Of a stretch of 57,084 bases of DNA, positions 1,790-28,537 are shown piece after piece. Under the pieces are notes generated by a model. It saw nothing but the letters and a program-made list of their open reading frames with translations, searched no databases and was not told the DNA's origin. Numbering within the stretch: the stretch's first letter is position 1; the number at the start of each line of letters is the position of its first letter. Both the position numbers and the translations under genes were made by a program. Source of the stretch: Massilimicrobiota sp. An134 (GTDB lineage: Bacteria > Bacillota_I > Bacilli_A > Erysipelotrichales > Coprobacillaceae); NCBI RefSeq assembly GCF_002160815.1, contig NZ_NFLH01000014.1, forward strand, positions 1 to 57,084, written 5' to 3'.

Positions 1790-1891
1790 TTTTTAAATAT
1801 TATCTTAAATTATAACTTAAGTAATATATATGATAATGTTTTAACTGACTTCATAGTTTGATATAATAGAATAATCGAGGGAGTGATTATA

Positions 1892-3535: not shown

Positions 3536-3538
3536 ATT

Positions 3539-3570: not shown

Positions 3571-3584
3571 ATTTTAAGAGTATT

Positions 3585-4670: not shown

Positions 4671-4692
4671 TGTATTTCGCTCCTTTTCATGT

Positions 4693-7893: not shown

Positions 7894-7905
7894 TTGGAGG
7901 TTCAT

Positions 7906-9485: not shown

Positions 9486-9497
9486 GAGGATAAAATC

Positions 9498-10037: not shown

Positions 10038-10253
10038 ATGAAAGTATGTTACAACAAATTTTTTAAATTATTGATTGATAGAGGAATTAGAAAAATGGAA
10101 TTTGCTAAGATGGCAGGTATTAGTCAAAATACGATGGCGAGACTTTCTCGAAATCAGAATGTTTCATTAGATGTACTAGGAAAAATATGTTGTACTTTAG
10201 ATTGTAAGATAGATGATATTCTTGAATTTATATCAGAAGATAAGGAGAAATAG
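10038..10253 (+). CDS. Small XRE-type regulator of the restriction operon
   Basis: 71 residues, essentially one Cro/CI-type HTH (MEFAKMAGISQNTMARLS, then LGKICCTLDCKIDDILEF). GGAGG precedes the ATG. The stop overlaps the region of the hsdM start. Small XRE proteins heading RM operons often act as controller proteins timing methylase and nuclease expression. That role is inferred from position. Confidence 0.75.
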   Translation: MKVCYNKFFKLLIDRGIRKMEFAKMAGISQNTMARLSRNQNVSLDVLGKICCTLDCKIDDILEFISEDKEK

Positions 10254-10255
10254 TG

Positions 10256-11761: not shown

Positions 11762-11897
11762 CTTTGCTATATTATTTAAATGTGCTGTGAGTAAATTCAT
11801 TTGTGTGAAATTAAATATTGGTTAAGGATACTAATCGGATATTTTATTAACTTAAGAACATATTTAAAATATTTTAACAGGTATAGAAAAGTTCATC

Positions 11898-12005
11898 GAG
11901 TAGCTTTAGCAACTCTTAGATCATGGGAAAATAGATACAACTTTTCAGTACGCAATGGAAAAACAGAGCAATGTTAAGATTGTTCACTTAAAATACATTA
12001 GATAA
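11898..12005 (+). pseudogene. Relic of the 3' end of a tyrosine recombinase
   Basis: In the frame starting GAG at 11898 the bases read E*L*QLLDHGKIDTTFQYAM followed by KQSNVKIVHLKYIR and a stop. This closely matches the end of the intact recombinase at 13326-14309 (EQLQQLLGHRKIDTTLQYAM). Two stops replace glutamine codons, both C-to-T changes. The identical AGAGGAAAAGATTATGG leader follows in both places. A recombinase-hsdS unit was therefore duplicated and one recombinase decayed. Upstream bases 11762-11897 hold nothing else recognisable. Confidence 0.85.
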
Positions 12006-12018
12006 AGAGGAAAAGATT

Positions 12019-12576
12019 ATGGTTGAATGGATTGAGAAAAGTCTTGGAGAAATTGCAGAAGTAACAAAACTGGCTGGTTTCGAGTTTACTAAGCATATAA
12101 AATACAACAGTGATGGAGAAATTATAGCGTTGAGAGCTCTAAATTTGAGAAACGGAGAACTAGATTTAACTGATATCAAAAGAATATCAAGAGAAGTGTC
12201 AGAAAGATTGACTAGAAGTAAAATTTATAAAGACGACATATTGTTAACTTATACAGGAAATGGGTATGGCGATTGTGCAATAATAGAAGATAATGATAAG
12301 TACCATTTAGCACCCAATATTTGCAAAATTGTACCTAATAATAAAGAAGTTTTCCCATATTATTTATATTGCTATATTCGTTCCAAAGCCTTTTATAATC
12401 AAATGTCTAACAATATGACGGGATCTGGACAACCTACCATTCCAATGAAAACAATAAGGCTGCTAAAAGTACCAGTACCAGAAATGAGTGTGCAAATAAA
12501 TGTTGCTAATATGATATGGTTGCTCAATCAAAAAATACGCAATAACAGAGCGATAAACAATAATTTAGCGGCTTAA
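12019..12576 (+). CDS. hsdS: Truncated HsdS carrying one recognition domain (half-gene a, OFF form)
   Basis: 185 residues: one target-recognition domain (about 1-150, starting MVEWIEKSLGEIAEVTKL) and the start of the central spacer helix (NQKIRNNRAINNNL). The frame then crosses site 1 and stops after two codons (AA*), because the DNA beyond belongs to an inverted second half. A normal type I HsdS has two recognition domains (about 390-410 residues). Flipping the segment between sites 1 and 2 would join this frame in register to half c. A single-domain HsdS can in principle work as a dimer. Good ribosome binding site AGAGGAAAAG. Confidence 0.85.
   Translation: MVEWIEKSLGEIAEVTKLAGFEFTKHIKYNSDGEIIALRALNLRNGELDLTDIKRISREVSERLTRSKIYKDDILLTYTGNGYGDCAIIEDNDKYHLAPNICKIVPNNKEVFPYYLYCYIRSKAFYNQMSNNMTGSGQPTIPMKTIRLLKVPVPEMSVQINVANMIWLLNQKIRNNRAINNNLAA
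12553..12568 (+). repeat. hsdS recombination site 1 (plus orientation)
   Basis: ATAAACAATAATTTAG, encoding INNNL in the HsdS spacer helix. It is identical to sites 2-4 and imperfectly palindromic (TAAA...TTTA), as expected for a tyrosine-recombinase core. It faces site 2 in inverted orientation. Confidence 0.85.
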
Positions 12577-13205
12577 AGCTCAATGCCTGACACATCAATC
12601 TCGCCGGACATTAAACGAGGTAAAAGAGTATCTCGAAGCTTTGCTAAGCGTTTGTTTTCTAAACGGTTATTAACAATCTGTTCTATCATCGGCGCTGTTA
12701 TTTCGTCGAACTTGTTGAGCGTACTCTCATCAGGTAGCAAGATTTCAAAAGAGTCGTAATCTTTTTTGCCTATATGAATTACAGTTGTAGCAACCTGTGT
12801 TTGCTCAATATGATTCAGTAAAGGCTTAATACTGTAAAGAACAAACGCTTTTCTCTTTGGTTGTTTATTTTCAAAAATACATACTCGTTGGTTAAGCCAA
12901 GCTTCTTCATTACCCCAAATGTATGGACGGAATTCTCCATCCATACCAACTACAATGTCACCGGGATGAATTAAATGACCTTTTGGATGTATTTCTGTTG
13001 TAAAGGTTACAAATTCTTGTTCCTTTAGGTCACGAATACGAATGATAGGTTTACCAAATCCTTCCGTATTGAACATTTTTGAAGCAAAAGGAGCACCATA
13101 GATAATGTTTGCAACAGAATATATATCTGTAAGTTTCCAGTTAGCTGGCTTTGTCCCATTAAATGGCTCATAATCAACAAACCAAGATTTGTAGAGCGCT
13201 TGCAT
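12573..13205 (-). CDS. Silent HsdS second half (recognition domain c), inverted cassette
   Basis: 210 codons on the minus strand from MQALYKSWFVDYEPFNG to the C-terminal LMSGEIDVSGIEL, the standard end of an HsdS. Upstream of the apparent ATG the frame continues through site 2 as INNNLDEQ, the same register as the spacer of half-gene a. It therefore lacks its first half and promoter and is a storage cassette. Inversion between sites 1 and 2 would give an a+c HsdS of about 400 residues. It ends 4 bases into the stop region of half-gene a. Confidence 0.85.
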   Translation of the reverse strand: MQALYKSWFVDYEPFNGTKPANWKLTDIYSVANIIYGAPFASKMFNTEGFGKPIIRIRDLKEQEFVTFTTEIHPKGHLIHPGDIVVGMDGEFRPYIWGNEEAWLNQRVCIFENKQPKRKAFVLYSIKPLLNHIEQTQVATTVIHIGKKDYDSFEILLPDESTLNKFDEITAPMIEQIVNNRLENKRLAKLRDTLLPRLMSGEIDVSGIEL

Positions 13206-13213
13206 TTGTTCAT

Positions 13214-13229
13214 CTAAATTATTGTTTAT
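13214..13229 (-). repeat. hsdS recombination site 2 (minus orientation)
   Basis: CTAAATTATTGTTTAT, the exact reverse complement of site 1, just upstream of silent half c. Together with site 1 it brackets a segment of about 680 bp. Confidence 0.85.
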
Positions 13230-13325
13230 AATATATCCGATAACTCCCGTGGGTGGCGGGAGTTAATATCAGGGGACTTCCGCCTCATTGTCGTTCTCTA
13301 AGATTTATTCAAAGGAGAATTGACT

Positions 13326-14309
13326 GTGAAACAAAATTTAATTAAAGACGTTGTTCAGGAAATGTTACCTTTCTTAAACAATGCACAAAGCGAAAAATTG
13401 CAAGAAGTTTTGAAATATGCTCTTGGAAAATACGAGGTAACAGAAAATAAAGAGACAGAGATAATCTTGGAGCAGGACTTTGTTGAACTGTTCTTATCTG
13501 CAAAACGAATAGAGGGCTGCTCTGAGAAATCTCTAAAATATTATAAAGCAACCATTGAAGCTATGATTGCGGAATTACAAAAAAACGTTAAGCATATTGT
13601 AACAGATGATATTCGCAATTATCTTACTCACTATCAAGAGAAAAATGGTTCAAGTAAAGTTACAATAGATAATATTCGCCGTATTTTATCAAGCTTCTTT
13701 TCTTGGTTGGAGGATGAGGATTATATACTGAAAAGCCCCGTCAGACGCATATACAGAGTGAAAACTGGAACAAATATCAAGGAAACATATTCCGATGAGG
13801 CGTTAGAACTTATGAGAGATAATTGTACGGAATTAAGAGATTTGGCGATGATAGATATGCTTGCGTCAACAGGTATGCGTGTCGGCGAAATGGTATTGCT
13901 AAATCGAAATGATATTGATTTCAATGAAAGAGAATGTATTGTGTTCGGTAAAGGAAGCAAAGAGCGTGTGGTCTACTTTGATGCTCGAACTAAGATACAT
14001 TTACAGAATTATTTAGAAAGCAGAACAGATGATAATCCGGCGTTGTTTGTATCGCTTAAGTCACCTCACGAAAGGCTAAAAATCGGCGGTGTTGAAGTCC
14101 GTCTGCGTGAATACGGAAAACGATTAGGTTTGCAAAAAGTACACCCACACAAGTTTAGGCGTACACTTGCAACTATGGCAATAGATAAAGGAATGCCTAC
14201 TGAGCAGCTTCAGCAGCTCTTGGGACATAGGAAGATAGATACAACCTTGCAGTATGCAATGGTAAAACAGAGCAATGTTAAAATTGCTCACCGAAAATAC
14301 ATTGGATAG
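13326..14309 (+). CDS. Tyrosine recombinase of the hsdS shufflon
   Basis: 327 residues from the GTG at 13326 (AAGGAG 8 bases upstream); a TTG at 13320 is too close to that site. An N-terminal SAM-like domain (about 40-130) precedes the catalytic domain with R in STGMRVGEM (about 181), HPHKFRRTLA (about 274) and Y in TTLQYAMV (about 309). It lies between two hsdS loci bearing four copies of a 16-bp site, so it most likely inverts hsdS segments rather than mobilizing an element. Its codons are slightly more GC-rich than its neighbours'. A GC-rich hairpin (TAACTCCCG/CGGGAGTTA, near 13241-13265) precedes it. Confidence 0.9.
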   Translation: MKQNLIKDVVQEMLPFLNNAQSEKLQEVLKYALGKYEVTENKETEIILEQDFVELFLSAKRIEGCSEKSLKYYKATIEAMIAELQKNVKHIVTDDIRNYLTHYQEKNGSSKVTIDNIRRILSSFFSWLEDEDYILKSPVRRIYRVKTGTNIKETYSDEALELMRDNCTELRDLAMIDMLASTGMRVGEMVLLNRNDIDFNERECIVFGKGSKERVVYFDARTKIHLQNYLESRTDDNPALFVSLKSPHERLKIGGVEVRLREYGKRLGLQKVHPHKFRRTLATMAIDKGMPTEQLQQLLGHRKIDTTLQYAMVKQSNVKIAHRKYIG

Positions 14310-14322
14310 AGAGGAAAAGATT

Positions 14323-15498
14323 ATGGCTGAACAAATCACAACGTTAGCTTCACTAACGGTAAACGGAAAAGGTTCATACGGAATTGGTGCAAGTGCCGTT
14401 CCTTTCTCAAGAGATTTATATACCTATTTGAGAATTACAGATATAAAAGATGACGGAACACTCAATCTACAAGATTTGAAATCGGTTGATGATGATAAAG
14501 CTTCGGAATATCTTTTAAAACCGAACGATATTGTATTTGCAAGAACAGGAGCAAGTACTGGAAGAAATTATTTTTACGATGGAACAGACGGGGAGTTTGT
14601 ATATGCAGGATTTCTTATTAAATTCAGTATTGATGAGAAAAAAGTAAATCCTAAATATATAAAGTATTTCTGTCAATCTAAACAGTATAAGGACTGGATT
14701 AACTCCTTTAATACTGGTAGCACACGTGGAAACATAAATGCTCAAACTCTTGGAAAAATGCCGATTCCTCTAATTGAGAGAAAGAAACAAGATGCTTTGG
14801 TAAGTATTCTTTCAAGTATAGACGAAAAAATTAAGAAGAATGAAGCAATAAACAATAATTTAGAGCAGCAAGCACAGACTTTGTTTGAAAATACTTTTTG
14901 TAAACCCGCAGATTTTGCTACAAAACGAATTTCATTGTCGAACTTAATGGACTATGCCGGTGGAAGCCAACCACCTGCTTCCGAATTCATTTTTAGCCCG
15001 CAAGAGGGTTACATTCGTTTTGTTCAAATTAGAGATTACGATACTGACAGTCACATTACATATATACCTGTTTCTTCCAAAAACAAGCTTTGTGAAGAAC
15101 ACGATATAATGATTGCCCGATATGGTGCATCTTTGGGGCGAATCTGCTTCGGAATTAACGGAGCTTATAATGTTGCTCTTGCTAAGGTTTTTCCAAAGAA
15201 AACCTTTTACAGAGAGTTTCTTCGATGCTACTTATCCTCTCGCACATTTTATGAAGGGATAAACAATAAAGGTGGAAGAAGCGCACAATCAGGGTTCAAT
15301 CAAAGTGATATAAACTCTTTTGAGATAGAATTTCCGCTTGATGAGGCCATCGTAAAGAACTTTGAAGATATTATTGCGCCAATGTTTGAGCAACGTTTGC
15401 AACTTAAAAAAGAAAACCAATACCTTTCTTCTTTGCGTGATACCCTTTTACCAAAACTGATGTCTGGTGAGATTGATGTGTCTAACATCGAGCTTTAA
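14323..15498 (+). CDS. hsdS: Full-length HsdS specificity subunit (recognition domains b+d, ON form)
   Basis: 391 residues from the ATG at 14323 (leader GAGGAAAAGATT, the same as for half-gene a). The first recognition domain covers about 1-165, the spacer helix with INNNLEQQAQTLFENTF begins near 175, the second domain is about 200-350, and the tail ends LMSGEIDVSNIEL. It directs the M2S and R2M2S complexes to a bipartite target. Site 3 lies in the spacer codons and site 4 just after the stop, so the second domain is itself an invertible cassette. It follows the recombinase by 13 bases. Confidence 0.93.
   Translation: MAEQITTLASLTVNGKGSYGIGASAVPFSRDLYTYLRITDIKDDGTLNLQDLKSVDDDKASEYLLKPNDIVFARTGASTGRNYFYDGTDGEFVYAGFLIKFSIDEKKVNPKYIKYFCQSKQYKDWINSFNTGSTRGNINAQTLGKMPIPLIERKKQDALVSILSSIDEKIKKNEAINNNLEQQAQTLFENTFCKPADFATKRISLSNLMDYAGGSQPPASEFIFSPQEGYIRFVQIRDYDTDSHITYIPVSSKNKLCEEHDIMIARYGASLGRICFGINGAYNVALAKVFPKKTFYREFLRCYLSSRTFYEGINNKGGRSAQSGFNQSDINSFEIEFPLDEAIVKNFEDIIAPMFEQRLQLKKENQYLSSLRDTLLPKLMSGEIDVSNIEL
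14848..14863 (+). repeat. hsdS recombination site 3 (plus orientation)
   Basis: ATAAACAATAATTTAG within the spacer of the active hsdS, identical to site 1 and in the same reading register (INNNL). Confidence 0.85.
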
Positions 15499-15502
15499 GC
15501 TA

Positions 15503-15518
15503 CTAAATTATTGTTTAT
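15503..15518 (-). repeat. hsdS recombination site 4 (minus orientation)
   Basis: CTAAATTATTGTTTAT, 5 bases after the stop of the active hsdS. Inversion of 14848-15518 would leave the first half ending NNNLVA*, matching the NNNLAA* end of half-gene a. Confidence 0.85.
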
Positions 15519-15538: not shown

Positions 15539-16420
15539 ATGATTGAATGGGTAGATAAATATAGTAATGTAATACAAATTATAATAGGTTTACTTTCTTT
15601 AGGTGCAACATTTTTTGTTTCGTTTAGAATATATCAGTTACAAAAAAGACATGAACAAGAAATAGAAATGATGGAAGAAAATGAACAAAAAAGAAAATTA
15701 GAGGAAGAAGCACATAGGTTTTTAATAGATAATGCAGAAGAGATTGATTATTTGCCTTGGTGTGTTATTGCTAGTAACTTATCTAGACATCAAAAACATA
15801 CTCGTAAAATATACACGAATTTTTGTAAATGTTCTATAGAATTACAAAATGAAATAATGCGTGTTGAACAATACAATATACGTACTATTGATGATATAAA
15901 TTGGATAGATAAAGCCATAGAGTCACTAAGAAACGATATTAAAAAATTTCAATTGGCTCAACGTGATTATTTGTATGATAACGCAAAATATTTTCATAGA
16001 GCTTTTGAACATTATAAGGAAAAGAAATGGGAAAGAACTCCACGAATTTTTGAACCGATCAATAAATTTAAACAATTTTCAAAGATATGTTTTACAGATG
16101 GCAAGTTAAATATTGGAAATTATATTAATGAGTATCTTAATTTGTATATAGATAATTCAGATTTATGTATTGGTAAACCAAAACCACCATTTGATTATGT
16201 ATGGCAAGATCAAAAGTTATCTTCTATAGATACAGATGAAGAAATAGTTTGTTGGTGGATAATGGATTTGGTTTTTTATACTGTAATGAATCTTTATAAC
16301 CATGATATCTATGATTCAAAAATATTAATAAACGATATAACGGATGCACAAGTTAATACATTTGAAGATAAATACTTTCAAACAATGTTTGTATTATATT
16401 GTATATACTGCAATTCATAA
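15539..16420 (+). CDS. Membrane-anchored protein of unknown function in the RM operon
   Basis: 293 residues, family not recognised. One transmembrane segment at about 10-31 (IQIIIGLLSLGATFFVSF) is followed by a charged coiled-coil (about 33-56; EIEMMEENEQKRKLEEEA) and a soluble helical domain rich in aromatic residues. AAAAGGAG precedes the ATG. It lies between hsdS and hsdR, co-directional and closely spaced, so it is probably co-transcribed. An anti-phage accessory or membrane-tethering role is possible but is inference only. Confidence 0.7.
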   Translation: MIEWVDKYSNVIQIIIGLLSLGATFFVSFRIYQLQKRHEQEIEMMEENEQKRKLEEEAHRFLIDNAEEIDYLPWCVIASNLSRHQKHTRKIYTNFCKCSIELQNEIMRVEQYNIRTIDDINWIDKAIESLRNDIKKFQLAQRDYLYDNAKYFHRAFEHYKEKKWERTPRIFEPINKFKQFSKICFTDGKLNIGNYINEYLNLYIDNSDLCIGKPKPPFDYVWQDQKLSSIDTDEEIVCWWIMDLVFYTVMNLYNHDIYDSKILINDITDAQVNTFEDKYFQTMFVLYCIYCNS

Positions 16421-16505
16421 AATATTAATTAGAAAATCAAGAAGAGAAAAAAATAATTTTGAGTATAAAGCAAAACACATCATTGATGTAAAAATGGGGG
16501 AATAT

Positions 16506-17324
16506 ATGAAAAAGAAAATAATTGAATCTATATTTATGATAGTTTTAGTAATAATAATAGGAATAATTATATCATATATTTTTGGCTTTCAAATTACATA
16601 TAATCCTTCTTTAGATAATAATTGGGATGCTCTTTCAGTATGTGCTTCTTGGACTGGAGTTTTTACTTCTTTAATAGCGATTATTGTTGCTATTAAAGTT
16701 CCTGAAAAAATTGCTAAAAATCAAAATGATATTTCCTTATTTGAAAAACGTTGGGAATTGCGTGAAATAGTATCTGAATTGAAAGATTTTGGGAATGCAC
16801 TTTCAAAAATAAAAAAATCAGATATTGACGAATTAAGTATTATAACAAAATCTAGACATTATTTAATTGTTTTTATGTATAGCGGTGATCGTGATGAAGA
16901 AATACAAAAGAAAATTGGATTAAATATAAAGAATATCTATGATGAACATAAACAGTTGATAGGGTATCAGATTATTGATTGTAAAGATAGTGATTTAGAC
17001 GAGTATGAAAGAAATTTTAAAACTTATATTGGTAGACAAAAAAGAATTATCAAACAGTATTCATTATTGCTTGATCGAGATAGTGAATATATATTAACGA
17101 GAATAGCTGATGTGTATTATAAATTGATGATAGAAATATTAATGGGCAGTGATTTGAAAAATAATGATATTTTATCATTTAAAAGTAATCCTGAATTTGA
17201 AAAATATTTTTTTGATGCAGATAGTACTGAAAAAGTAAAAAATGAATTTTTAAATATGATTAAAGAAATGGAAGAGAAGCTCGTCTTTGAAAAAATTGAA
17301 GAATATCTGAGAATAAAGGAGTGA
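16506..17324 (+). CDS. Second membrane protein of unknown function in the RM operon
   Basis: 272 residues from the ATG at 16506, preceded by GGGGG; a longer frame from 16344 overlaps the previous gene and lacks a good ribosome binding site. Two hydrophobic segments are visible: about 6-28 (MIVLVIIIGIIISYIFGF) and about 43-63 (SWTGVFTSLIAIIVAIKV). A soluble helical region of about 200 residues follows. Family not recognised. Its TGA stop is 5 bases before the hsdR ATG. With the preceding gene it forms a pair of small-membrane-domain proteins embedded in the type I locus. Confidence 0.7.
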   Translation: MKKKIIESIFMIVLVIIIGIIISYIFGFQITYNPSLDNNWDALSVCASWTGVFTSLIAIIVAIKVPEKIAKNQNDISLFEKRWELREIVSELKDFGNALSKIKKSDIDELSIITKSRHYLIVFMYSGDRDEEIQKKIGLNIKNIYDEHKQLIGYQIIDCKDSDLDEYERNFKTYIGRQKRIIKQYSLLLDRDSEYILTRIADVYYKLMIEILMGSDLKNNDILSFKSNPEFEKYFFDADSTEKVKNEFLNMIKEMEEKLVFEKIEEYLRIKE

Positions 17325-17329
17325 GAATC

Positions 17330-20300
17330 ATGCATCAAGTATACAATGAAGAAAGTTACGAAAATTCAATAGTAGATTTATTTGAAAATGACTTACAATA
17401 TCAACGTGTTTATGGTCCTGATATTGTAAGAGATTTTTATAACCCTTTATATGAAGATGTTTTACTAGAATCGATTGAACGAATTAATAGAAGATTACCT
17501 CGTAGTGCTATAGATGATGCGCTATATAAATTGAAAAACTTCGAAAATGGTGAATTGGTTCAAAAGAATATGGTTTTTATGGATTATCTTCAAAATGGAG
17601 TACCTGTTCGTTATTTTGATGGTAGTGAAGAAAAGTCTTCGATTGTTTATTTGATTGATTATGATAATGTAAATAATAATTCATTTATTGTGGCTAACCA
17701 ATGGACGTTTATTGAAAGTAGTAATAAAAGACCAGATATCATATTGTTTATTAATGGATTGCCACTAGTATTAATGGAATTAAAATCTCCTTCTAGAGAA
17801 GAAACAGATGCTTCAGAGGCTTATCGTCAATTACGGAATTATATGCATGAGATTCCATCGATGTTTATTTATAATGCCATCTGTGTGATGAGTGATCATC
17901 TTGTATCAAAAGCTGGAACGATTACTTCAGGTGAAGATCGCTTTATGGAATGGAAGAGTAAAGATGGAAATCGAGTAAATGACAAGTTTGCTCAATTCGA
18001 TACTTTTTTTGAAGGAATTTTTGAAAAAGAAAGATTGTTAGATATTATTAAAAATTTTATTTGTTTTTCAAATGAAGGAATTAAAACTTTTAAAATATTA
18101 GCAGGGTATCATCAATATTTCGCAGTAAAAAAAGCCATTGTTTCGACAAAAAATGCAACACAAACAGATGGAAAAGCAGGAGTATTTTGGCATACACAAG
18201 GAAGTGGAAAATCATTATCCATGGTGTTCTATGCTCATTTGTTACAAAAAGCATTAAATAGTCCAACTATTGTTGTTATTACTGATAGAAATGATTTAGA
18301 TGATCAGTTATATGGACAATTTAGTAAATGCAAAGATTTTTTAAGACAGACTCCTATTCAAGCAGAAAGTAGAGATCATTTAAAACAATTATTAGAAGGT
18401 AGACAAGCCAATGGTATCATCTTTACAACAATGCAAAAGTTTGAAGAATATGGTGTTGCATTGTCTGATAGAAGAAATATTGTTGTAATGGCAGATGAAG
18501 CACATCGTGGGCAATATGGATTAACTGAAAAAATAAAAATGACTAAAAATGAACAAGGCGAAGAAATAGCAAAACGTACAGTAGGGATTGCTAGAATTAT
18601 TCGTGATAGTTTACCTAATGCGACTTTTATTGGATTTACTGGAACGCCTATTTCTTCAGCAGACCGTAATACTACGGAAGTTTTTGGTAAATATATAGAT
18701 ATATATGACATGACACAAGCGGTAGAAGATGGGGCAACAAGACCAGTGTATTATGAAAGTCGTGTTGTAAAATTAAATTTGGACGAAGAAACTTTAAAAA
18801 TCATCGATGACGAATATGATTTAATGGCTAGTAATGCTGACGAAGCAGTTATCGAAAAGAGTAAGAAAAAACTAGGACAAATGGAGGCTATTCTGGGTAA
18901 TAATAGCACGATAGATTCTTTGGTAAATGATATCATCTATCATTATGAAGAAAATCGTGAACACTTATTAACAGGTAAAGCCATGATTGTTGCATATTCT
19001 AGACCGATTGCAATGAAGATTTATGAAAAGATACTTGAATTAAGACCTCATTGGAAACAAGAAGAAAAGGTTGCTGTAGTAATGACTTCCGGGAATAAAG
19101 ATCCTGAAGAATGGCATGAAATTATTGGGAATAAAGCGCATAAAGAAGAACTAGCTAAGAAGTTTAAAGATAATAGTAGTTCTTTAAAAATAACAATTGT
19201 TGTGGATATGTGGTTGACAGGATTTGATGTACCATCATTAGCAACAATGTATGTTTATAAACCAATGCGTGGACATAATTTGATGCAGGCCATTGCACGA
19301 GTTAATCGTGTCTTCGGAGATAAAGAAGGTGGACTTGTTGTTGATTATATTGGTATTGCAGGAGCTTTAAAACAAGCGATGAATGATTATACAACAAGAG
19401 ATAAAAAGAATTATGGAGATATGAATATCGTAGATATAGCATATCCTAAATTCTTGGAAAAATTATCAGTTTGCCAAGATTTGTTCTATGGTTATGATTA
19501 TAGTTTATTTAAAACCGGAACAGAATTACAAAGAGCAAAAGTAATTTCTGGTGCAGTAAACTTCATTATTGATCCAGTAAGAGAAGAAGATAAAGATATT
19601 TTTGTGAAGGAAGCATTATTAATGCATCAAGCATTATCATTGTGTTCATCTATTGTGAATGAAGAAAATCGTTTTGAGGCAGCCTTTTTTGAAACAATTC
19701 GTGTCATGGTAAATCGATTAATGAATAATGGTAATGGTCAGAAGCTATCCTTGCCAGATATTAATGAAAGAATAAATGAATTATTAAAGCAAAGCATTAA
19801 AAGTGATGGAGTAATCAATCTTTTCTCATCGATCAAGGAAGAGTTCTCATTGTTTGATCCTAAATTTCTTGAAGATGTCGCAAAAATGAAAGAAAAAAAT
19901 CTAGCTATTGAGTTGTTAAAACGATTAATAGCAGATCAAGTAGCTGTATATAAGAGAACCAATGTTGTAAAATCTGCAAAATTTAGCGAAATTATAAAAG
20001 CGACACTTAATCGTTATATTAACGGAATGATTACAAATGAGGAAGTAATACAAGAACTTTTAACATTAGCAAAACAAATTACTGATGCACAAAATGAAGG
20101 TAATAAGTTAGGTCTTACAGCTGATGAATTAGCTTTTTATGATGCATTAACAAAGCCACAAGCAATTAAAGATTTTTATGAGAATGAAGAGTTAATTGCA
20201 ATAACTAAGGAACTAGCAGATACACTTCGTAAAAACAGTACTATTGATTGGCAGAAGAGAGAATCAGCAAGAGCAAATATGAGGATGAAGATTAAGAGAT

Positions 20301-20392
20301 TATTAAAGATACATAGATATCCACCTGATGGAATGGATGATGCAGTTCAAACTGTCATGATGCAATGTGAGATGTGGGCTGATAACCAATGA
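17330..20392 (+). CDS. hsdR: Type I restriction endonuclease subunit
   Basis: 1020 residues from the ATG at 17330, with AAGGAG 8 bases upstream. The N-terminal PD-(D/E)xK nuclease domain (about 30-230) has the catalytic LVLMELKSP near 150. Two RecA-like motor domains follow: Walker A HTQGSGKS (about 287), DEAH box MADEAH (about 388), GFTGTP (about 440) and motif VI QAIARVNRVF (about 650). The C-terminal helical region binds HsdM. It translocates DNA and cuts far from the recognition site. Expression downstream of hsdM and hsdS suits delayed nuclease production. Confidence 0.96.
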   Translation: MHQVYNEESYENSIVDLFENDLQYQRVYGPDIVRDFYNPLYEDVLLESIERINRRLPRSAIDDALYKLKNFENGELVQKNMVFMDYLQNGVPVRYFDGSEEKSSIVYLIDYDNVNNNSFIVANQWTFIESSNKRPDIILFINGLPLVLMELKSPSREETDASEAYRQLRNYMHEIPSMFIYNAICVMSDHLVSKAGTITSGEDRFMEWKSKDGNRVNDKFAQFDTFFEGIFEKERLLDIIKNFICFSNEGIKTFKILAGYHQYFAVKKAIVSTKNATQTDGKAGVFWHTQGSGKSLSMVFYAHLLQKALNSPTIVVITDRNDLDDQLYGQFSKCKDFLRQTPIQAESRDHLKQLLEGRQANGIIFTTMQKFEEYGVALSDRRNIVVMADEAHRGQYGLTEKIKMTKNEQGEEIAKRTVGIARIIRDSLPNATFIGFTGTPISSADRNTTEVFGKYIDIYDMTQAVEDGATRPVYYESRVVKLNLDEETLKIIDDEYDLMASNADEAVIEKSKKKLGQMEAILGNNSTIDSLVNDIIYHYEENREHLLTGKAMIVAYSRPIAMKIYEKILELRPHWKQEEKVAVVMTSGNKDPEEWHEIIGNKAHKEELAKKFKDNSSSLKITIVVDMWLTGFDVPSLATMYVYKPMRGHNLMQAIARVNRVFGDKEGGLVVDYIGIAGALKQAMNDYTTRDKKNYGDMNIVDIAYPKFLEKLSVCQDLFYGYDYSLFKTGTELQRAKVISGAVNFIIDPVREEDKDIFVKEALLMHQALSLCSSIVNEENRFEAAFFETIRVMVNRLMNNGNGQKLSLPDINERINELLKQSIKSDGVINLFSSIKEEFSLFDPKFLEDVAKMKEKNLAIELLKRLIADQVAVYKRTNVVKSAKFSEIIKATLNRYINGMITNEEVIQELLTLAKQITDAQNEGNKLGLTADELAFYDALTKPQAIKDFYENEELIAITKELADTLRKNSTIDWQKRESARANMRMKIKRLLKIHRYPPDGMDDAVQTVMMQCEMWADNQ

Positions 20393-20411: not shown

Positions 20412-21251
20412 ATGGTTCATGGAAAAGCAATAGAGTTATTTTTAGTAAATGGGACCGCAGAGAGTTTAGTAACTGCTGAATTATCAAATTGGAATGGTAA
20501 AGCAATTAAAATCCCTAGAACAGAAGTTCAACAATGTAATCGTGAGGATCTTAGAAATGCGGGAGTATATTTCTTATTTTGTAAGGAAGATTCTGATATA
20601 GATTCTGTTTACATAGGAGAAGCTGAAAATGTGTTGGATAGACTAAATCAACATTTAAGAGATTATAATTCTGATAAAGAAAAATACTATTGGAATTCAG
20701 CTGTTGTTTTTACAGGAAGGGATTTAAATAAAGCTTTGATACGTTATTTAGAAAATAGATTTGTTGAGATAGCAAGAGAATGTGGTCGTTATCAGATATT
20801 AACTAAAAATACATATAAGAATACAGTGATGAAAGAATCTCAGATTGCTTCTATGGAAGAGTTTATTGATAATGTAAAGATAATTATTAATACATTAGGA
20901 TATAAAGTTCTTGAACCAGTTCCACATGCAGACGAAAAAACAGTGTATTTGTATTGTAAAGGAAGTGGAGCAAATGCTAAAGGATTTGTTAGTTCTGGTG
21001 GATTTACAGTTTTAAAAGGATCGAAAGTATCTGATCACATGGTTTCTTCGTTTGAATTAAGAGGAAGATCTTATTTCAATTTAACGAATAAATTAGTGGA
21101 TGATGGAATTATTGTAAATGATATTTTTGAAAAAGATTATGAATTTAATGCACCTTCAGCCGCCTCTGCAGTGATTCTTGGCCGTACAAGTAACGGGAAT
21201 ATCGATTGGAAAAATGACTCTGGTATATCTTTAAAAGATATTAATGAGTGA
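20412..21251 (+). CDS. GIY-YIG nuclease-family protein with DUF4357 C terminus
   Basis: 279 residues. The GIY-YIG fold (about 45-130) shows GVYFLFCKED and DSVYIGEAENVLDRLNQHL, with a later ENRF glutamate. The C-terminal DUF4357-like domain (about 185-279) has KGFVSSGGFTVLKGS. These proteins often accompany type I RM genes, but their activity is not established. It lies 19 bases after hsdR with its own ribosome binding site. After the TGA stop the same frame stays open for 46 more codons (to 21392), so a longer ancestral protein or a tiny coupled ORF is possible. Confidence 0.82.
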   Translation: MVHGKAIELFLVNGTAESLVTAELSNWNGKAIKIPRTEVQQCNREDLRNAGVYFLFCKEDSDIDSVYIGEAENVLDRLNQHLRDYNSDKEKYYWNSAVVFTGRDLNKALIRYLENRFVEIARECGRYQILTKNTYKNTVMKESQIASMEEFIDNVKIIINTLGYKVLEPVPHADEKTVYLYCKGSGANAKGFVSSGGFTVLKGSKVSDHMVSSFELRGRSYFNLTNKLVDDGIIVNDIFEKDYEFNAPSAASAVILGRTSNGNIDWKNDSGISLKDINE

Positions 21252-21433
21252 TTGGATGAACGAACTAACTCTAAGGTATCTTTGTCGATTAAATTACAAA
21301 AAATTACTGAACTTCTCGGCATAGGATTAACAATATATAGAATAGATTTTGATGAGATAAAAAAACATAAATTATTGGATTGGAAATATTAAAAAAGTAA
21401 TTAATGAAATTTGTTAAAATGAGAGTGTTTCTT

Positions 21434-21463
21434 AACAAACGGATTAGATAGCGGTTTGTTTTT
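21434..21463 (+). terminator. Terminator of the type I RM operon
   Basis: AACAAAC (21434-21440) and GTTTGTT (21454-21460) form a stem followed by TTT within TTGTTTTTG. It lies in the 380-base gap after the GIY-YIG gene. The rest of the gap (21252-21629) holds only the 46-codon in-frame extension and no recognised gene. Confidence 0.6.
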
Positions 21464-21629
21464 GTAACAATGATGTACTGTTTTGATAATATAAGAAACA
21501 TTCCATGAAGTTTGTACAATAGATTAATTTATTATTTGAAGGAAATAATACAGAATGGTGATATACCGTTATATTATTAGAAAATGAATTTCATAATTAA
21601 AAATGATAATGTTTTTAAGGGGTGAAAAA

Positions 21630-24074
21630 ATGAAAGGATGGCACAAAATAGATTTACATCAACATACACTACATGAGATTACATATGATGGTAAAGAACC
21701 TAAAAGTTTGTATACTCATGAAAAATTTGAAAATGTTTTGATAGAAGAAGGTGTTGAGTTAAAAGCGGTGACTAATCATAATACTTTGAATATTGTTGAT
21801 CACATTAAACATGCATTAATATGTAAGAAAAACAATGTTAACTATTTACCAGGAGTGGAAATAGATTATTTATTTGATACAAAAGATGTGCATGCAATTA
21901 CAATCTTGAATCCACAAAATGATATAGTATGTTTTTCATATAGACTAAATGAAATTATTACTAATAAATCTAAAAAAAAATTTTTAGATAAAGATGAGTT
22001 TGCGAGATTACATGAAAATATGGAATTTATTTTTATTCCTCATGTAATGAAAAACAAAGGGATTTATCCGTCAAAAGATATAGAACCAGTGGAAGAAGCG
22101 GAAGACTGGGTGATTAATATGATAAAAAATGGAATTTCTGTTCCAGTCATATTTGAGAACACACAGAATTATAATAAATATTCAATTTATGGTAAAATCG
22201 AAGAACTTTTATTAGATGATTATCAGTATCCCGCTTGTTATGTTGGGTCAGATTATAAGTTTGATAATGATGTGCAACGAAGAAAAGTTGCTATTGATAG
22301 AGTTAAACATTATATTTTTTCGGAGCCAACATATAGAGGGTTAGAGATTTCTGTTAGAAATCATAAAACAAGAATGGCGCATGAATCTGAACTAATATCC
22401 AGAGGTAAATATTTAGAATCAATTAAGATACATAATAATAAGAATTTTAGAAACGATATGACATTAGAGTTATCTCCAGCATTAAATGTTATTATTGGTG
22501 GATCAGGATCTGGAAAAACATTATTACTTAATGAAATATTCAGGAGCATTACAGGAAATGATTTAAAAGATGTCAAAAATAACAGCAAGAAAAAGGGAGA
22601 AAGTGCATATTTTTCTAAAGTTGGGAAGGGGGCTCTTTTAGAAATTAAATCAGTTCCCAATAATTATAAAGAATTCAAAGTTGTAGAAATACCAAATATT
22701 TATACTGAAATAATGAAATATGTAAATAATCATGAGAAATTAGGAGATGTGTTCAAAATCTCTAATAGATCTTATGTGAATTCATTGATTAGTGACTTCA
22801 TTTTAGATTGTAATAAATATAGTGAATTAATGTCTGATTTGGAAGATGAGAAAAAATTAGGAAGCGAAAGTTTAAGAAATATTTTCACAAGTATTGAATT
22901 TTTAAATGCTAATCCAGTTAAAAAGAGCATGTTTAAATTAAAACCCAAGAATATGACGAATCCAAATTCATTAAAAACACATTTAATTATAGAAAATGAT
23001 AGAAAAATAATTTTAAAAAAAGATGAAATTTTAAAATATTTTAATGACATTGATAAAACGCTGGATTTTGAATTTAAAGAAATAGTAGAAGAAATTATTA
23101 ATAAATATTTGTTTTTATTAGATAGGATAAATGATAAAATTGATGCTTTTGAAGAAAGAGAGATTAAAGAAAAAGTACTGGAGCAGATACAAAATTTATT
23201 AAATATAGCTATCCGCAACTCTTCAACCAAACTAGGTCAAAAAGAAAAAATCTTCAAAGAGAGAGAAGAATTATTATCTAATAATCAGTCAACTTTGATT
23301 AATTGTATAAAAAATGTTTTGAAAATTAATAAAGAACTTGAAAGTGTTCATTTGAAATATCCTTTTGATAAAATAAAAAATACAATTGAAACAAAGAATG
23401 CAAATGAATTGGCTAGATTTACATTATCTTTTGATAAAGAAAGTTTAAAACATGTTTTAACTGATGATAGTGATTTTATTGAAACAAAAAATGTTTCTAC
23501 AAAGTTACGAAAATTACCAATAAAATATATTGACTTTTTAGATGATCAATCAATTAAATTGTTTATAAATGAACTTAAAAAAGTAAATTTGGATATTAAT
23601 AATATCATCAAAAATGAGTTGCCATTATCTCTTGAATTAAATGTAAATGGGAATTGGAAAGAAGCTACAGCAATTAATCAAGGAACAATAGCAAAAGTAT
23701 CTATGGAACATTATTTTAACGATATTATAAAAACTGAGCAACCAGATATTATTTTCATTGATCAACCTGAAAATGATGTAGATAAAGAATTTTTAACCCA
23801 AACATTAGCTAAATTTTTAATAGATAAGAAAATGGTATCACAGATTTTTATTACTTCACATGATGCAATATTAACAGTGAATGCAGATGCGAATATGATA
23901 ATACAAGCAGATGTTGATGAAGATAATAAAATTAGTTATATGTCATATCCATTAGAATATACAGAATGCAATAAAGTAGGAACTGATGAAGTTGCACGAA
24001 TATTGGATGGAGGAAAACAAAATATTGAGAAGAGATATCAAATTTATGGAGGTATTTTGAAATATGGAGATTAA
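21630..24074 (+). CDS. TrlF-like PHP-domain / ABC-type ATPase
   Basis: 814 residues from the ATG at 21630, preceded by AAGGGGTG. The N-terminal PHP phosphoesterase domain (about 1-250) starts GWHKIDLHQHTLHEITYDG, with further metal-binding candidates in TNHNT and PHVMKN. An SMC/ABC-like ATPase follows: Walker A GGSGSGKT (about 290), a long helical insertion (about 390-620) and Walker B IIFIDQPEND (about 705). A switch histidine is visible in ITSHD. TrlF-like proteins are found in defence-rich regions; a nuclease or phosphoesterase gated by the ATPase is likely but unproven. The next gene overlaps its end by 11 bases. Confidence 0.82.
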   Translation: MKGWHKIDLHQHTLHEITYDGKEPKSLYTHEKFENVLIEEGVELKAVTNHNTLNIVDHIKHALICKKNNVNYLPGVEIDYLFDTKDVHAITILNPQNDIVCFSYRLNEIITNKSKKKFLDKDEFARLHENMEFIFIPHVMKNKGIYPSKDIEPVEEAEDWVINMIKNGISVPVIFENTQNYNKYSIYGKIEELLLDDYQYPACYVGSDYKFDNDVQRRKVAIDRVKHYIFSEPTYRGLEISVRNHKTRMAHESELISRGKYLESIKIHNNKNFRNDMTLELSPALNVIIGGSGSGKTLLLNEIFRSITGNDLKDVKNNSKKKGESAYFSKVGKGALLEIKSVPNNYKEFKVVEIPNIYTEIMKYVNNHEKLGDVFKISNRSYVNSLISDFILDCNKYSELMSDLEDEKKLGSESLRNIFTSIEFLNANPVKKSMFKLKPKNMTNPNSLKTHLIIENDRKIILKKDEILKYFNDIDKTLDFEFKEIVEEIINKYLFLLDRINDKIDAFEEREIKEKVLEQIQNLLNIAIRNSSTKLGQKEKIFKEREELLSNNQSTLINCIKNVLKINKELESVHLKYPFDKIKNTIETKNANELARFTLSFDKESLKHVLTDDSDFIETKNVSTKLRKLPIKYIDFLDDQSIKLFINELKKVNLDINNIIKNELPLSLELNVNGNWKEATAINQGTIAKVSMEHYFNDIIKTEQPDIIFIDQPENDVDKEFLTQTLAKFLIDKKMVSQIFITSHDAILTVNADANMIIQADVDEDNKISYMSYPLEYTECNKVGTDEVARILDGGKQNIEKRYQIYGGILKYGD

Positions 24075-24318
24075 TATTTTAAAAGAAAAAGAGAATGTTT
24101 TCTTTAATGTAGATGGATCAGAAAATCAACTAATGAATTTTGATAATTTAGTTACTTTGTCAGAGAAAATAGTTGATATGAAAGATGATTTTGAATATCA
24201 AATTAATTGTTCTGATAGTTCGTTAGAATTATATAGATCAACATTAGTTGAATTGATAGAAAGCTTGAGAAACGACACTGATTTGCTGGAATTACTCTCT
24301 AAAAAGGATGGAGTATAA
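24064..24318 (+). CDS. Small acidic partner of the PHP-ATPase
   Basis: 84 residues, family not recognised. It begins MEINILKEKENVFFNVDGSE and is acidic and probably helical in its second half. Its ATG lies inside the last codons of the PHP-ATPase (11-base overlap), which implies translational coupling and suggests a stoichiometric partner or regulator. No ribosome binding site independent of the upstream gene is obvious. Confidence 0.6.
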   Translation: MEINILKEKENVFFNVDGSENQLMNFDNLVTLSEKIVDMKDDFEYQINCSDSSLELYRSTLVELIESLRNDTDLLELLSKKDGV

Positions 24319-24891
24319 AAAACCTGATACCGTTATGCTACCAACATAAAGTGTTTATTGTAAAAATTGAAATAATCTGATAGAAAAATGAGATTTTACG
24401 CTTTTAATGTTAACAAATATGTTCATTATAATCATTTTATTTCGGAGTTCGAATAGTATCAGGCAATTAGTAGGTGTCATTCAATGAATTATACTTACAT
24501 CACACATATAAAAAAGTTATATTTTTTGTTAAACAAGACATATGGAGACGGCAGTGTTTTTTTCGCCGAAAACTAGATGGATACAACAATACAAAAGGTG
24601 ATTTTAGAGAATATTAAGATGAAATTTTGTCAGATAAGATTATGAAGAGAGTGGAATGTTACAAGTTAAAAGAGTGACTTATATATGATGATTATGAATT
24701 AAAGAGAAGAAAAATATGATTTTAGGGTACATATACTGCATATATAGAATCAGTAACGAGATAATTTGATTTATCGATGTATGTTGTTTTTAATACGGTA
24801 GAAGAATTGAAACATAGGGAATCAGCGCAGTTAGAAATGATTGTTGATGTTTTGAAATAGTTTGAAAATATATAAATTAAAGGAGATTGTT
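24319..24891. other. Gene-free 570-base gap with decayed coding sequence
   Basis: No intact gene. Inverted copies CCTGATAC (about 24324) and GTATCAGG (about 24457) bracket the first part. Further on, broken frames read as protein-like pieces, for example FDLSMYVVFNTVEELKHRES near 24768-24830, interrupted by stops. These look like the remains of a lost gene of unknown family. The promoter of the PARIS pair should lie near the right end. Confidence 0.4.
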
Positions 24892-26211
24892 ATGTTAGAA
24901 AAACTTTTTGTAAAGAAACTGTTTGGTTTATTTGATAATGAGATAAATTTCAGAGATGGTGGAATTACGGTTGTTGTTGGACAAAATGGTTGTGGGAAAA
25001 CTACAATGTTGAATATTCTAAATGCAATTTTTTCCAAGAATCATAGCCATCTTTTTCAATATCAATTTGATTATATCGAATTAATAATATCAAGTCATGT
25101 ATTAAAAATCGAAGTAATTAATGAATATCTTGAAGATGAAGAAATAACAATAAAAAGTTTGAAATATCATGTGGATTCACAAGTATTAGAAAAATGTTAT
25201 AGAGAAAATAGTAAAATAAATTCCCCTATATTTTGGATAAGAGCCATTCCTTCATTAAGAAGAAGACCAGGAAATATGATTTACGATATGAGAGGGGGAG
25301 AAGTGCTAACTTTATCTGAAGTAATAGATACATATTTTGATGAACTACCAGAAGAAGTAAAGAATGACCTTGTTACAATACCTCATGAAGTGCAAGAATT
25401 AATTTCTGATATACAGATAGAGTTAATAACAACTGAACGATTGAAAAGAATTTATCCATATGATGAAGATAGAAGAAGTGAATTTGTACAGAAATTTGCA
25501 GTAGAGTATTGTTCTGAAGAATTGCGTAATAATATTAAAAACATTTTGTCAGAGTATGCCAATACTTCCCAAAAACTTGACGAACAATTTCCATCCAAGA
25601 TTTTAAAGGCAATAGAGAAACACAAACAATTTTCAGTAGAAGAATTAAAAAATAATATGCAGAAAATAGATGAGTTAAGAAAAAAGCATGTAGAGGCAGG
25701 GGTATTGGAAGAGAGTAATGACAAAATTCTCAATGTTAATGTAAATCCTAAAAGTTTGGATGAAAGTACAGCTGCAATTTTATCAGTATATTATCAAGAT
25801 ACGAAAATAAAACTCGAATCACTTAATAGTATATCGGATAGGATTGTATTATTTAAAAATATGATAACCAATAAATTTGGCATTAATAAGGAGATTTTTA
25901 TTAGTAAAGATAATGGAATTGTCGTATTACAAAAACAGTCAAATAAAAATTTAGAGTTGAGATTGTTATCTTCAGGGGAACAACAGGAATTAGTTCTACT
26001 ATATAATCTTATTTTTAAGGGTGAAAAAGAAAAATTAATTTTAATTGATGAACCAGAAATTTCATTGAATGTTTGTTGGCAAAGAGAATTCTTGGATGAT
26101 ATGAAAAAAATTGTTCAAATGAATGGATTTTCTATTTTAATTGCAACTCATTCTCCACAGATAATCAATGATAATTGGGAGTTAGTGGATACTTTAGGAG
26201 ATTATGAATAA
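24892..26211 (+). CDS. ariA: PARIS defence ATPase AriA
   Basis: 439 residues from the ATG at 24892, with AAAGGAG upstream. This is an OLD/ABC-type AAA ATPase: Walker A VVVGQNGCGKTTMLNIL (about 26-42), a central helical insertion, signature LSSGEQQEL (about 358), Walker B LILIDEPEISL (about 380) and switch histidine ATHSPQII (about 420). In PARIS, AriA assembles into a sensor that holds AriB and releases it when a phage anti-restriction protein is detected. Its size and the immediately following DUF4435 gene fit. Its position in a type I RM island matches the known biology. Confidence 0.85.
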   Translation: MLEKLFVKKLFGLFDNEINFRDGGITVVVGQNGCGKTTMLNILNAIFSKNHSHLFQYQFDYIELIISSHVLKIEVINEYLEDEEITIKSLKYHVDSQVLEKCYRENSKINSPIFWIRAIPSLRRRPGNMIYDMRGGEVLTLSEVIDTYFDELPEEVKNDLVTIPHEVQELISDIQIELITTERLKRIYPYDEDRRSEFVQKFAVEYCSEELRNNIKNILSEYANTSQKLDEQFPSKILKAIEKHKQFSVEELKNNMQKIDELRKKHVEAGVLEESNDKILNVNVNPKSLDESTAAILSVYYQDTKIKLESLNSISDRIVLFKNMITNKFGINKEIFISKDNGIVVLQKQSNKNLELRLLSSGEQQELVLLYNLIFKGEKEKLILIDEPEISLNVCWQREFLDDMKKIVQMNGFSILIATHSPQIINDNWELVDTLGDYE

Positions 26212-27045
26212 ATGAAAGAAAGTACTAAAGAAAAAATGAGTTTGTCTCCTGATGAATTGGCAACCGAGCTTTCTATGATAAGCAAAGAGTATTTAATTGT
26301 TGAAGGACAAAGTGATAAATATTTTTGGGAACATTTACATTGTGGTGGGTTAAAAAAAAGACTGGTTAGAGTAGCAAATAAAAAACAATGTTCAGGAAAT
26401 AAGGAGTATGTAAAGCAAGTTATTTCTATAATGAATGGAAGGCAGAAAAATAATGTAGTTGGTGTGATAGATTTAGATTATGATTTTGTCAGGGATAAAA
26501 TAGAGAGCATTGATAATTTGTACTATTATAAATATATTGATTTAGAAAATGTTTTGATTCAATCCTCTGTATTTTCTGAGGTGAATACGTTAATTTCTTC
26601 TGAAAATAAGAAATTAGAAGATGATGTATTAAAAAATATTTTATATAAAAAAGCGTATATTTTAGGAATTCTAAGATTACTAAATGATATTGAAAAATAT
26701 AATTTTTGTTTTGAAGGCCTCGATTATAAGAAATTGTTAAATAATGATGATGAAAAGTTTTTGGAGTATTTTGTGGCAAGAATGAATCTTAATAAAGAAA
26801 GAGAAGATATTTATTCAAAAGTTAAATTGTTACTTGAAAAAAAATATGCCAGCGAATATATTTGTAATGGTCATGATTTAATAAATATTTTTAGCGAGTT
26901 AACGAGAAAAATAATTTCAACTGACAATCCAATAAAATATACGGAAGAAGTATTGGGTAAAATGTTAATTTTGGGTTATAGAATAACAGATAATTCCTCG
27001 GATGTACAAGACTGTACAGATATTATATTAATCGAAGATGTATGA
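26212..27045 (+). CDS. ariB: PARIS effector nuclease AriB (DUF4435)
   Basis: 277 residues. The TOPRIM-like DUF4435 core is visible: the catalytic-type glutamate in EYLIVEGQSDKYFWEHL (about 24-40), then GVIDLDYDF (about 84-92) and DLENVLIQS. AriB enzymes are toxic nucleases, shown for a characterised PARIS to cut host tRNA, kept inactive by AriA. The ATG starts one base after the ariA stop, with AGGAG about 10 bases upstream. The gene ends in TGA. Other DUF4435 systems exist, but the ATPase pairing favours PARIS. Confidence 0.83.
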   Translation: MKESTKEKMSLSPDELATELSMISKEYLIVEGQSDKYFWEHLHCGGLKKRLVRVANKKQCSGNKEYVKQVISIMNGRQKNNVVGVIDLDYDFVRDKIESIDNLYYYKYIDLENVLIQSSVFSEVNTLISSENKKLEDDVLKNILYKKAYILGILRLLNDIEKYNFCFEGLDYKKLLNNDDEKFLEYFVARMNLNKEREDIYSKVKLLLEKKYASEYICNGHDLINIFSELTRKIISTDNPIKYTEEVLGKMLILGYRITDNSSDVQDCTDIILIEDV

Positions 27046-27635
27046 AAATATAGTTTATGTATATAGTAACACTATATACAACTGTAAGACACATAACTGT
27101 ATTTCCAATTTAAATTTTTCTTTAAAAATAAATGTGAAAAGATAGCGTGTTATTGTAAATCTACTGGAAATTCTTTTCTCAAAAACAGTTGAAAAATTTG
27201 ATTGTACAATTTTTACACATCGTAAGATTTTAGAGTGTTGTTTTAATGTTATCATTATTAACTTTATAATGGATGCTGAATTATATACTCGATCTGAGTA
27301 TATTTTGAGTACATTATGTAATTTAAAAAATCAAAAATGGGTATAATCTGCTAATATTGGATAAAATTAACAAAATGCAATATGATATAAGAAGGAACGA
27401 TTTGCAAAAGTTGAGTTCGGATAAGATAAAAAGTTTTAAAGTTGTATTAGTTATTGGGTAATTTCTGGTCTAAAGAATTAATGATATATCTAGCAACTAA
27501 TACTATATTAATTAATGGTACTATTTTGGTACTAAGATGTTCTGTAAATAAAAATAATCTGCAGAAACTAAGATAAAATTACACTAAATACAGCCATAAA
27601 AATACTTAATAAAACTAAAATATTTTAAAGCTTAT
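27046..27635. other. Right-end gap of the element (no gene)
   Basis: About 590 AT-rich bases with no credible ORF. The perfect 9-bp stem GTATATAGT/ACTATATAC (27059-27079) directly follows ariB and could be a weak terminator. TATACTC (27284-27290) and GAGTATA (27296-27302) form another small hairpin. An arm-type repeat lies at 27516-27535, near attR. Confidence 0.5.
27516..27535 (+). repeat. Arm-type direct repeat near attR
   Basis: TGGTACTATTTTGGTACTA: two TGGTACTA units with an 11-base period, one base different from the copies at 1609 and 3603. Its preceding bases ATTAA also match the int-end copy. It lies about 100 bases inside attR. Confidence 0.6.
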
Positions 27636-27985: not shown

Positions 27986-28019
27986 AAAAAAGGAGTCCAG
28001 ATTGTCTGGCTTCCTTTTT
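27986..28019. terminator. Bidirectional terminator of the YafQ-DinJ operon
   Basis: AAAAAAGGAGTCCAG and CTGGCTTCCTTTTT face each other around ATTGT. Read on the minus strand the hairpin starts in the toxin stop codon and ends in a T-run. One bulged position interrupts the stem. Confidence 0.75.
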
Positions 28020-28290
28020 AGAACAAATCAGAATGTGTACCTGTTCTAACCAATGCAAGTGTCAATTCACCTTTTTCTATTCTATAAATGAGAAGCCAAT
28101 CAGGCTCAATATGGCATTCTCTAAAGTTTCTATAATTGCCTGTCAATTCGTGGTCACGATATTTTTCATCAAGTGGACGCTGATTAGCCAGTTCATTAAC
28201 AACGTATTTCAGCTTTTCCAAATCTTTTCCACGTTTCTTCATCAGCTTATAGTCTTTTTTGAAGGTATGATGATACCTGATTTTAAGCAT
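28018..28290 (-). CDS. yafQ: YafQ-family mRNA interferase toxin
   Basis: 90 residues with the RelE/YafQ fold: HTFKKDYKLMKKRGKDLEKL, then HELTGNYRNFRECHIEPDWL and YRIEKGELTLALVRTGTHSDLF. The conserved histidine, aspartate and C-terminal HSDLF fit YafQ, a ribosome-dependent mRNA endonuclease. The start overlaps the antitoxin end by 8 bases. It probably stabilises this accessory region. Confidence 0.92.
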   Translation of the reverse strand: MLKIRYHHTFKKDYKLMKKRGKDLEKLKYVVNELANQRPLDEKYRDHELTGNYRNFRECHIEPDWLLIYRIEKGELTLALVRTGTHSDLF

Positions 28291-28537
28291 CTAAATCATC
28301 GAATAATTCATCCACAGTATCAAATGATTTGCTGAGATTCTGATTGTTTGCTGTTTCATCAAGAATCTTAAGAGTATCACTGTTATATAGAGAAACATCA
28401 AAAGGTATTCTGCGTTCTCTACACATTTTTTTAATAAAGATTGTCAATGCAGTCGTTGGATTCAAACCTAGTTCTTCACATATCTTTTCGAAATCTTTCT
28501 TGACTGAATCATTGATTCTGAAGCTCATCTGTGCCAT
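28283..28537 (-). CDS. dinJ: RelB/DinJ-family antitoxin
   Basis: 84 residues. The N-terminal ribbon-helix-helix (AQMSFRINDSVKKDFEKI, then LGLNPTTALTIFIKKMCRER) matches RelB/DinJ. The C-terminal tail would wrap the toxin. AGGAGG precedes the ATG. It is first in the operon, with a consensus promoter upstream; autorepression by the TA complex is expected. Confidence 0.92.
   Translation of the reverse strand: MAQMSFRINDSVKKDFEKICEELGLNPTTALTIFIKKMCRERRIPFDVSLYNSDTLKILDETANNQNLSKSFDTVDELFDDLDA

Follow-up and report, generated by a model that had tools for sequence, protein, structure and literature searches.

Two overlapping genes in the window (the whole stretch of DNA analysed here, 57,084 nucleotides) probably make up an anti-phage conflict cassette, in which a large protein joining a PHP phosphoesterase to an ABC ATPase is accompanied by a small acidic protein. 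The best reading is that the pair represents a new branch of the design PHP-ATPase plus small partner, of which the PADLOC candidate PDC-M49 is a listed example. The features of the pair are:

21630 to 24074, forward strand: big gene, encoding an 814-residue PHP phosphoesterase–ABC ATPase with a helical insertion (open reading frame, NCBIfam, relatives)
21630 to 22379, forward strand: PHP domain, approximately residues 1–250 (alignment columns; the limits are an estimate)
22497 to 22520, forward strand: Walker A motif GGSGSGKT, residues 290–297 (alignment; Pfam)
23760 to 23771, forward strand: Walker B motif DQPE, residues 711–714 (alignment)
24048 to 24053, forward strand: Shine–Dalgarno sequence GGAGGT of the small gene, within the last codons of the big gene (6-nucleotide match)
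24064 to 24074, forward strand: overlap of the big and small genes, 11 bases (reading-frame coordinates)
24064 to 24318, forward strand: small gene, encoding the 84-residue acidic partner (open reading frame; dN/dS; AlphaFold)
21629 to 24308, forward strand: cassette of both genes, its DNA matching at 87% a 12.4-kb locus of Candidatus Stoquefichus massiliensis (blastn)

The reading of an 814-residue protein from the ATG at 21630, with a DLHQHT motif and a P-loop, and of an 84-residue frame overlapping its end by 11 bases, goes back to an initial annotation of this DNA and was confirmed in every part. The ATG of the big gene has AAGGGGTGAA just before it. Alignment columns show that the PHP ligands H10, H12, H50, E77, H88, H138 and D208 are kept in the big protein (P0001). 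In each of the four full-length rows of the window's cluster, lysine (K210) takes the place of the last histidine of motif IV, so catalysis by this branch is not certain; lysine, arginine, asparagine or alanine also occupies the position in loci L013, L097, L102, L090 and L059. Pfam SMC_N/AAA_29 matches residues 261–304, the usual catalytic glutamate of Walker B is glutamine, as in TrlF, and the switch histidine is H744; the roles of these PHP, Walker and switch residues are those that we take them to have from knowledge of the family. A classification of ABC ATPases is reportedly due to Krishnan and colleagues, in 2020. The predicted structure of the big protein (pLDDT 35.8) was too poor to use. 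Its relatives include proteins with 88% identity and with 41–42% identity (the latter from uncultured Bacilli, L023 and L024).

Is the small frame a gene? It runs in the same direction as the big gene, beginning within its last codons, and its ATG is separated by 10 nucleotides from the GGAGGT, a Shine–Dalgarno match of at least 5 nucleotides being found for only three of 62 out-of-frame ATGs within the big gene. Compared with the relative in Candidatus Stoquefichus massiliensis AP9 (G032), its dN/dS is 0.11 (0.10 for the big gene), with differences at the three codon positions of 10/5/24 (80/31/201 for the big gene), and it is therefore a real gene under purifying selection. The idea of a dedicated partner, which the initial annotation had been ready to give up if the frame lacked both homologues and coding signal, consequently stands, because homologues of the small frame adjoin other big genes and the coding signal is present.

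The small protein (P0002) is modelled by AlphaFold with pLDDT 85.6 and pTM 0.69 as a beta-beta-alpha-beta-alpha-alpha fold. It has no family at a meaningful score in Pfam, NCBIfam, PADLOC or PHROGs, and a Foldseek search with the fold matched nothing in the PDB or a viral library at E ≤ 0.001. Periplasmic domains of ExbD/TolR resemble the model (Z 5.6, rmsd 2.2, 60 residues aligned), a likeness that may merely reflect a common arrangement. The acidic excess of P0002 amounts to 13 per 100 residues. Acidic proteins make up all 26 of the partners considered and 36 of 50 window proteins, and an excess of at least 8 per 100 is reached by 10 of the 26 partners and by three of the 50 controls, so that the acidity is only moderately out of the ordinary. 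A promoter scan gave no excess (23 against 31.7 in shuffled sequence), a terminator scan found none, and Rfam had no match within the window.

Comparison by blastn of window positions 1–33000 with the 12.4-kb Stoquefichus locus gave a single alignment, 21629–24308, and since similarity is confined to this interval, with nothing common on either side, both genes constitute one exchange unit. Wherever a close relative of the big gene was found, the small gene adjoins it, homologues lying beside L023, L024 and the contig-edge fragment L017 (identities to P0002 within its cluster are 82, 35 and 31%). A profile of the P0002 cluster made three strong matches in 392 genomes, all adjoining a big gene, and none at a strong score without one; five weak matches (E 5e-4 to 1e-3, in five genomes and within longer frames) were judged to be chance. 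Family protein searches placed the big and small proteins in the same two of 43 genomes. No relative of the pair was found in the viral contigs scanned, and no phage record matched P0001.

How general is this arrangement? Overlapping samples at the levels of phylum, class and order (392, 395 and 315 genomes) were searched for distinct frames of at least 600 residues that have a PHP motif close to the start and Walker B close to the end, a partner being defined as a same-strand frame of 60–145 residues that starts in the last 80 nucleotides of the big gene and extends more than 120 nucleotides beyond its stop. A partner accompanied 21 of the 31 distinct full-length rows, two of the 21 (L005 and L023) being almost identical copies found in two MAGs. 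The ten rows without one were eight TrlF genes with room downstream, a TrlF gene without room (L011) and L049, also without room; L097, a longer locus of L049, has an overlapping partner. Away from the TrlF side of the tree, every one of the 21 full-length PHP-ATPases has an overlapping frame of 75–136 residues, whereas a direct check found an overlapping frame of 60–145 residues in none of 13 TrlF-side genes (L013, L053–L059, L093 and L106–L109). As controls, 153 other genes of at least 200 residues included 14 that met the partner rule, but seven of these were truncated views of target genes, the removal of which leaves 7 of 146.

These counts leave out the pMAR2 locus, contig-edge fragments or broken copies (L017/L036; L062/L094, a fragment in which no partner was seen; L074/L095; L075/L096) and the split-gene loci L098 and L099. 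In the last two (1970–4761 and 1774–4590, from the code 4 genomes G091 and G339) the PHP domain, the ATPase and the small partner stand side by side as three genes, ordered as they are when fused. L093 is a PHP-ATPase below the TrlF cut-off, without a partner and on a long branch on the TrlF side; it was missed by the motif script because its PHP motif differs. A frame of 233–246 residues lies behind the PHP-ATPase gene of L109, and directly after L059 there is one of 310 residues, the start of which looks AlbA_2-like by eye. L106 (Microcystis phage Mwe-JY31, 2965–5670) is a PHP-ATPase gene without a small partner.

In a tree of 31 big proteins (22 with a partner and nine without) the partner label changes only once, with support of 98/97, on an unrooted topology that leaves gain or loss undirected, has some long branches and unsure inner joins, and has L106–L109 outside it. 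A single change was seen in 98% of 200 bootstrap trees, against a mean of 7.9 changes when labels were shuffled. The similarity matrices of big and small proteins also correspond (Mantel Spearman 0.47, with none of 5000 permutations as high, n = 23). Between clusters, the partners have only position, size and acidity in common: hhalign gave probabilities below 2%, cluster HMMs did not clearly rank other partners over decoys, and local alignment scores of remote partner pairs were slightly higher than those of shuffled sequences (39.3 against 35.0, sd 7.4). As the clusters share no detectable sequence homology, a single homologous small-protein family across the branch is unproven.

The resemblance of the big protein to TrlF, as a PHP domain with an ABC/SMC-like ATPase, was correctly recognized at the outset. 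The NCBIfam TrlF model (NF045780, presumably named after Photorhabdus trlF) matches P0001 with 128.7 bits (E 3.3e-37), though below its cut-off of 350, and the best of 14 aligned members (E 7e-59) also falls well below the cut-off. Shared with TrlF are PHP motif I, the P-loop and a DQPE Walker B in one chain, and a mobile and defence-related setting. TrlF proteins are longer (869–1059 residues, against 814), and TrlF rows have no overlapping small gene (eight of eight with room), whereas the window gene has one, this absence being our own criterion for TrlF and not the model's. Membership of TrlF was rejected on the sub-cut-off score. The gene trlF belongs to the Photorhabdus temperature-restriction locus, the operon of which has an upstream gene for a 79-residue regulator and an AlbA_2/HATPase gene in place of the small partner (PMC7554251).

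Like the window pair, PDC-M49 is a PHP-ATPase followed by an overlapping small gene. PDC-M49A is matched by L097 (627 bits) and L102 (730 bits), and PDC-M49B by the small frames that overlap them (60 and 85 bits; E 7.5e-17 and 1e-24), so the two-gene layout is already catalogued as a candidate. The initial view of the system as undescribed is therefore only partly right, though the window pair itself falls outside these models: P0001 matches PDC-M49A weakly (35.7 bits, residues 5–145 only) and P0002 has no match to PDC-M49B up to E 1. The big proteins of L097 and L102 are also of about 670 residues with DEPE, against DQPE in the window protein, and membership of PDC-M49 was rejected on model scores. 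A relative of L102 with coverage of 80% or more of the query occurs in 53 of 57 matching plasmid records (45 Enterococcus). A pair of similar layout on an Enterococcus plasmid is annotated as a histidinol-phosphatase and a hypothetical protein, and in L105, one of these plasmid records, the pair stands between recombinase genes.

Ppl, an anti-phage exonuclease with PHP and NTPase parts, is a single-gene system (PMC12904381), in contrast to the two-gene window locus. It has in common with the window protein the combination of PHP nuclease and NTPase and some C-terminal similarity (34.6 bits), but the Ppl models have 882–894 positions, and the window protein gives no full-length match (34.1 bits against a cut-off of 1000); membership was rejected on model score. 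Residues 23–303 also match the Spaf_1101 family AAA-like ATPase model (NF045781), rejected in turn at 40.5 bits against a cut-off of 475. No paper on this pair, and none naming 'PDC-M49', emerged from a literature search whose scope stopped short of most subscription papers and preprints. Partner-bearing PHP-ATPases can be told from TrlF and Ppl by a simple, testable genomic rule. In public annotation the big genes carry names (TrlF, histidinol-phosphatase), and the small gene stays a hypothetical protein.

How might the pair work? The big protein, in which an N-terminal PHP metal-dependent phosphoesterase is followed by an ABC ATPase interrupted by a helical (coiled-coil-like) insertion, would by analogy be an ATP-gated nuclease, and the small acidic protein would be its dedicated regulatory subunit. 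Coupling of its translation to the end of the big gene would allow both proteins to be produced and assembled together. The small protein would most likely hold the nuclease off, or set its trigger threshold, until infection, when a change in nucleotide pools or in the ends of DNA or RNA might release the nuclease, or a phage product might do so by removing or binding the small protein; the freed nuclease could then degrade nucleic acid, stopping phage growth or the cell. The physical complex, the inhibitory role, the nuclease substrate and defence itself are all putative, defence being suggested by context and family. That the cassette is an ATP-gated PHP nuclease with a dedicated small regulatory subunit, most likely inhibitory, and directed against phage, seems to us evenly poised. 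Somewhat more tentatively, nearly all non-TrlF PHP-ABC ATPases of Bacilli may form one large, mostly uncatalogued defence group, of which PDC-M49 would be one tip, and the constant feature of which would be a fast-diversifying acidic subunit encoded across the stop codon, which in each lineage would be the specific trigger or brake of a shared ATP-gated nuclease.

A regulatory role is likelier for the small protein than a catalytic one, because TrlF and Ppl do without such a part; since canonical TrlF and Ppl work partnerless, its role cannot be read across from them. Being acidic, strictly linked and fast to diverge, it would suit a brake or trigger part. An inhibitory role is our first choice, and the main rival makes it, within the same two-part complex, something that the nuclease needs: an activator, a phage sensor or an assembly subunit. 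This we regard as possible but appreciably less likely: the partner is always present in the branch, it is translated after the enzyme and not before it, and its clusters are unrecognizable to each other, as expected of a fast-diversifying part that meets phage products, but Ppl and TrlF, of the same design, lack such a part, so that catalysis as such does not depend on it, and the small protein of the window is strongly acidic. Comparison of the big protein alone with the pair offers a handle on how a PHP-ABC nuclease is kept in check.

The mobile, defence-rich setting claimed for the pair was likewise found, with its own flanking gaps of 378 nucleotides upstream (21251 to 21630) and 543 downstream (24318 to 24862). 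The features of this setting are:

3593 to 27534, no strand: host mobile element of about 24 kb, bounded by a direct repeat
3585 to 4670, reverse strand: tyrosine integrase at one end of the element
8214 to 9485: relaxase of the element
10253 to 15498 and 17321 to 20392: type I restriction system, further upstream
20412 to 21251: GIY-YIG/DUF4357 protein, upstream neighbour of the pair (PADLOC candidate PDC-S14, 5.8e-96)
24862 to 27045: AAA_15 ATPase (AriA-like, 1.3e-28), then a DUF3226-like gene (below cut-off), downstream

The direct repeat is of 29 nucleotides, 90% identical (3593–3621 and 27506–27534), and the backbone also has a Prim-Pol replication protein; the pair is thus cargo of a mobilizable element. 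Its immediate neighbours had been called two known defence systems, which overstates the case, as they are one PADLOC candidate family (PDC-S14) and a candidate AriA-like ATPase pair. The AAA_15 and DUF3226-like genes form a second two-gene candidate adjoining the pair. In G032, G354, G002, G464 and G484, five relative loci picked by hand and with some neighbours lacking any match, restriction or candidate defence genes flank the relatives (type II restriction, GmrSD-like, AlwI-like, TIR of ThsB-like type, AbiLi-like and PDC-S06 genes).

Such neighbours speak against the idea that the pair is a module for addiction or plasmid competition, stabilizing its element like a toxin–antitoxin pair and having no part in phage defence. 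Carriage on mobilizable elements, the frequency of the PDC-M49 type on plasmids, the L105 pair between recombinase genes and the compact two-gene layout would agree with this idea, but a large PHP-ABC ATPase is unlike the known toxins controlled by an antitoxin, and we think the idea improbable. Least tenable of all, and already contradicted, is chance stacking of an unrelated small gene behind a canonical TrlF gene, for which the E value of the TrlF match might be quoted, but which is opposed by the sub-cut-off score, the partnerless TrlF side, the keeping of the partner at 31–82% identity beside big relatives, the DNA similarity that stops with the pair and the low overlap rate in other genes.

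Some further observations concern the element and its surroundings. Genome G002 has similar backbone genes (71% DNA identity over window positions 6924–9819) and carries a different PHP-ATPase pair. In the type I system, one inverted hsdS piece (12573–13205, reverse strand), an embedded tyrosine recombinase (13320–14309) and 83-nucleotide inverted repeats (12553–12635 and 15436–15518) give an arrangement that looks like a phase-variable specificity switch. Between hsdS and hsdR are two overlapping frames of 293 and 326 residues (15539–17324), for which Pfam, NCBIfam and PADLOC give no significant family. Just outside the element lie, on one side, a SLFN_AlbA_2 and HATPase_c_4 protein (1883–3535), with the same domains as TrlG of the Photorhabdus operon, and, on the other, a YafQ toxin and RelB antitoxin pair (28018–28537, reverse strand).
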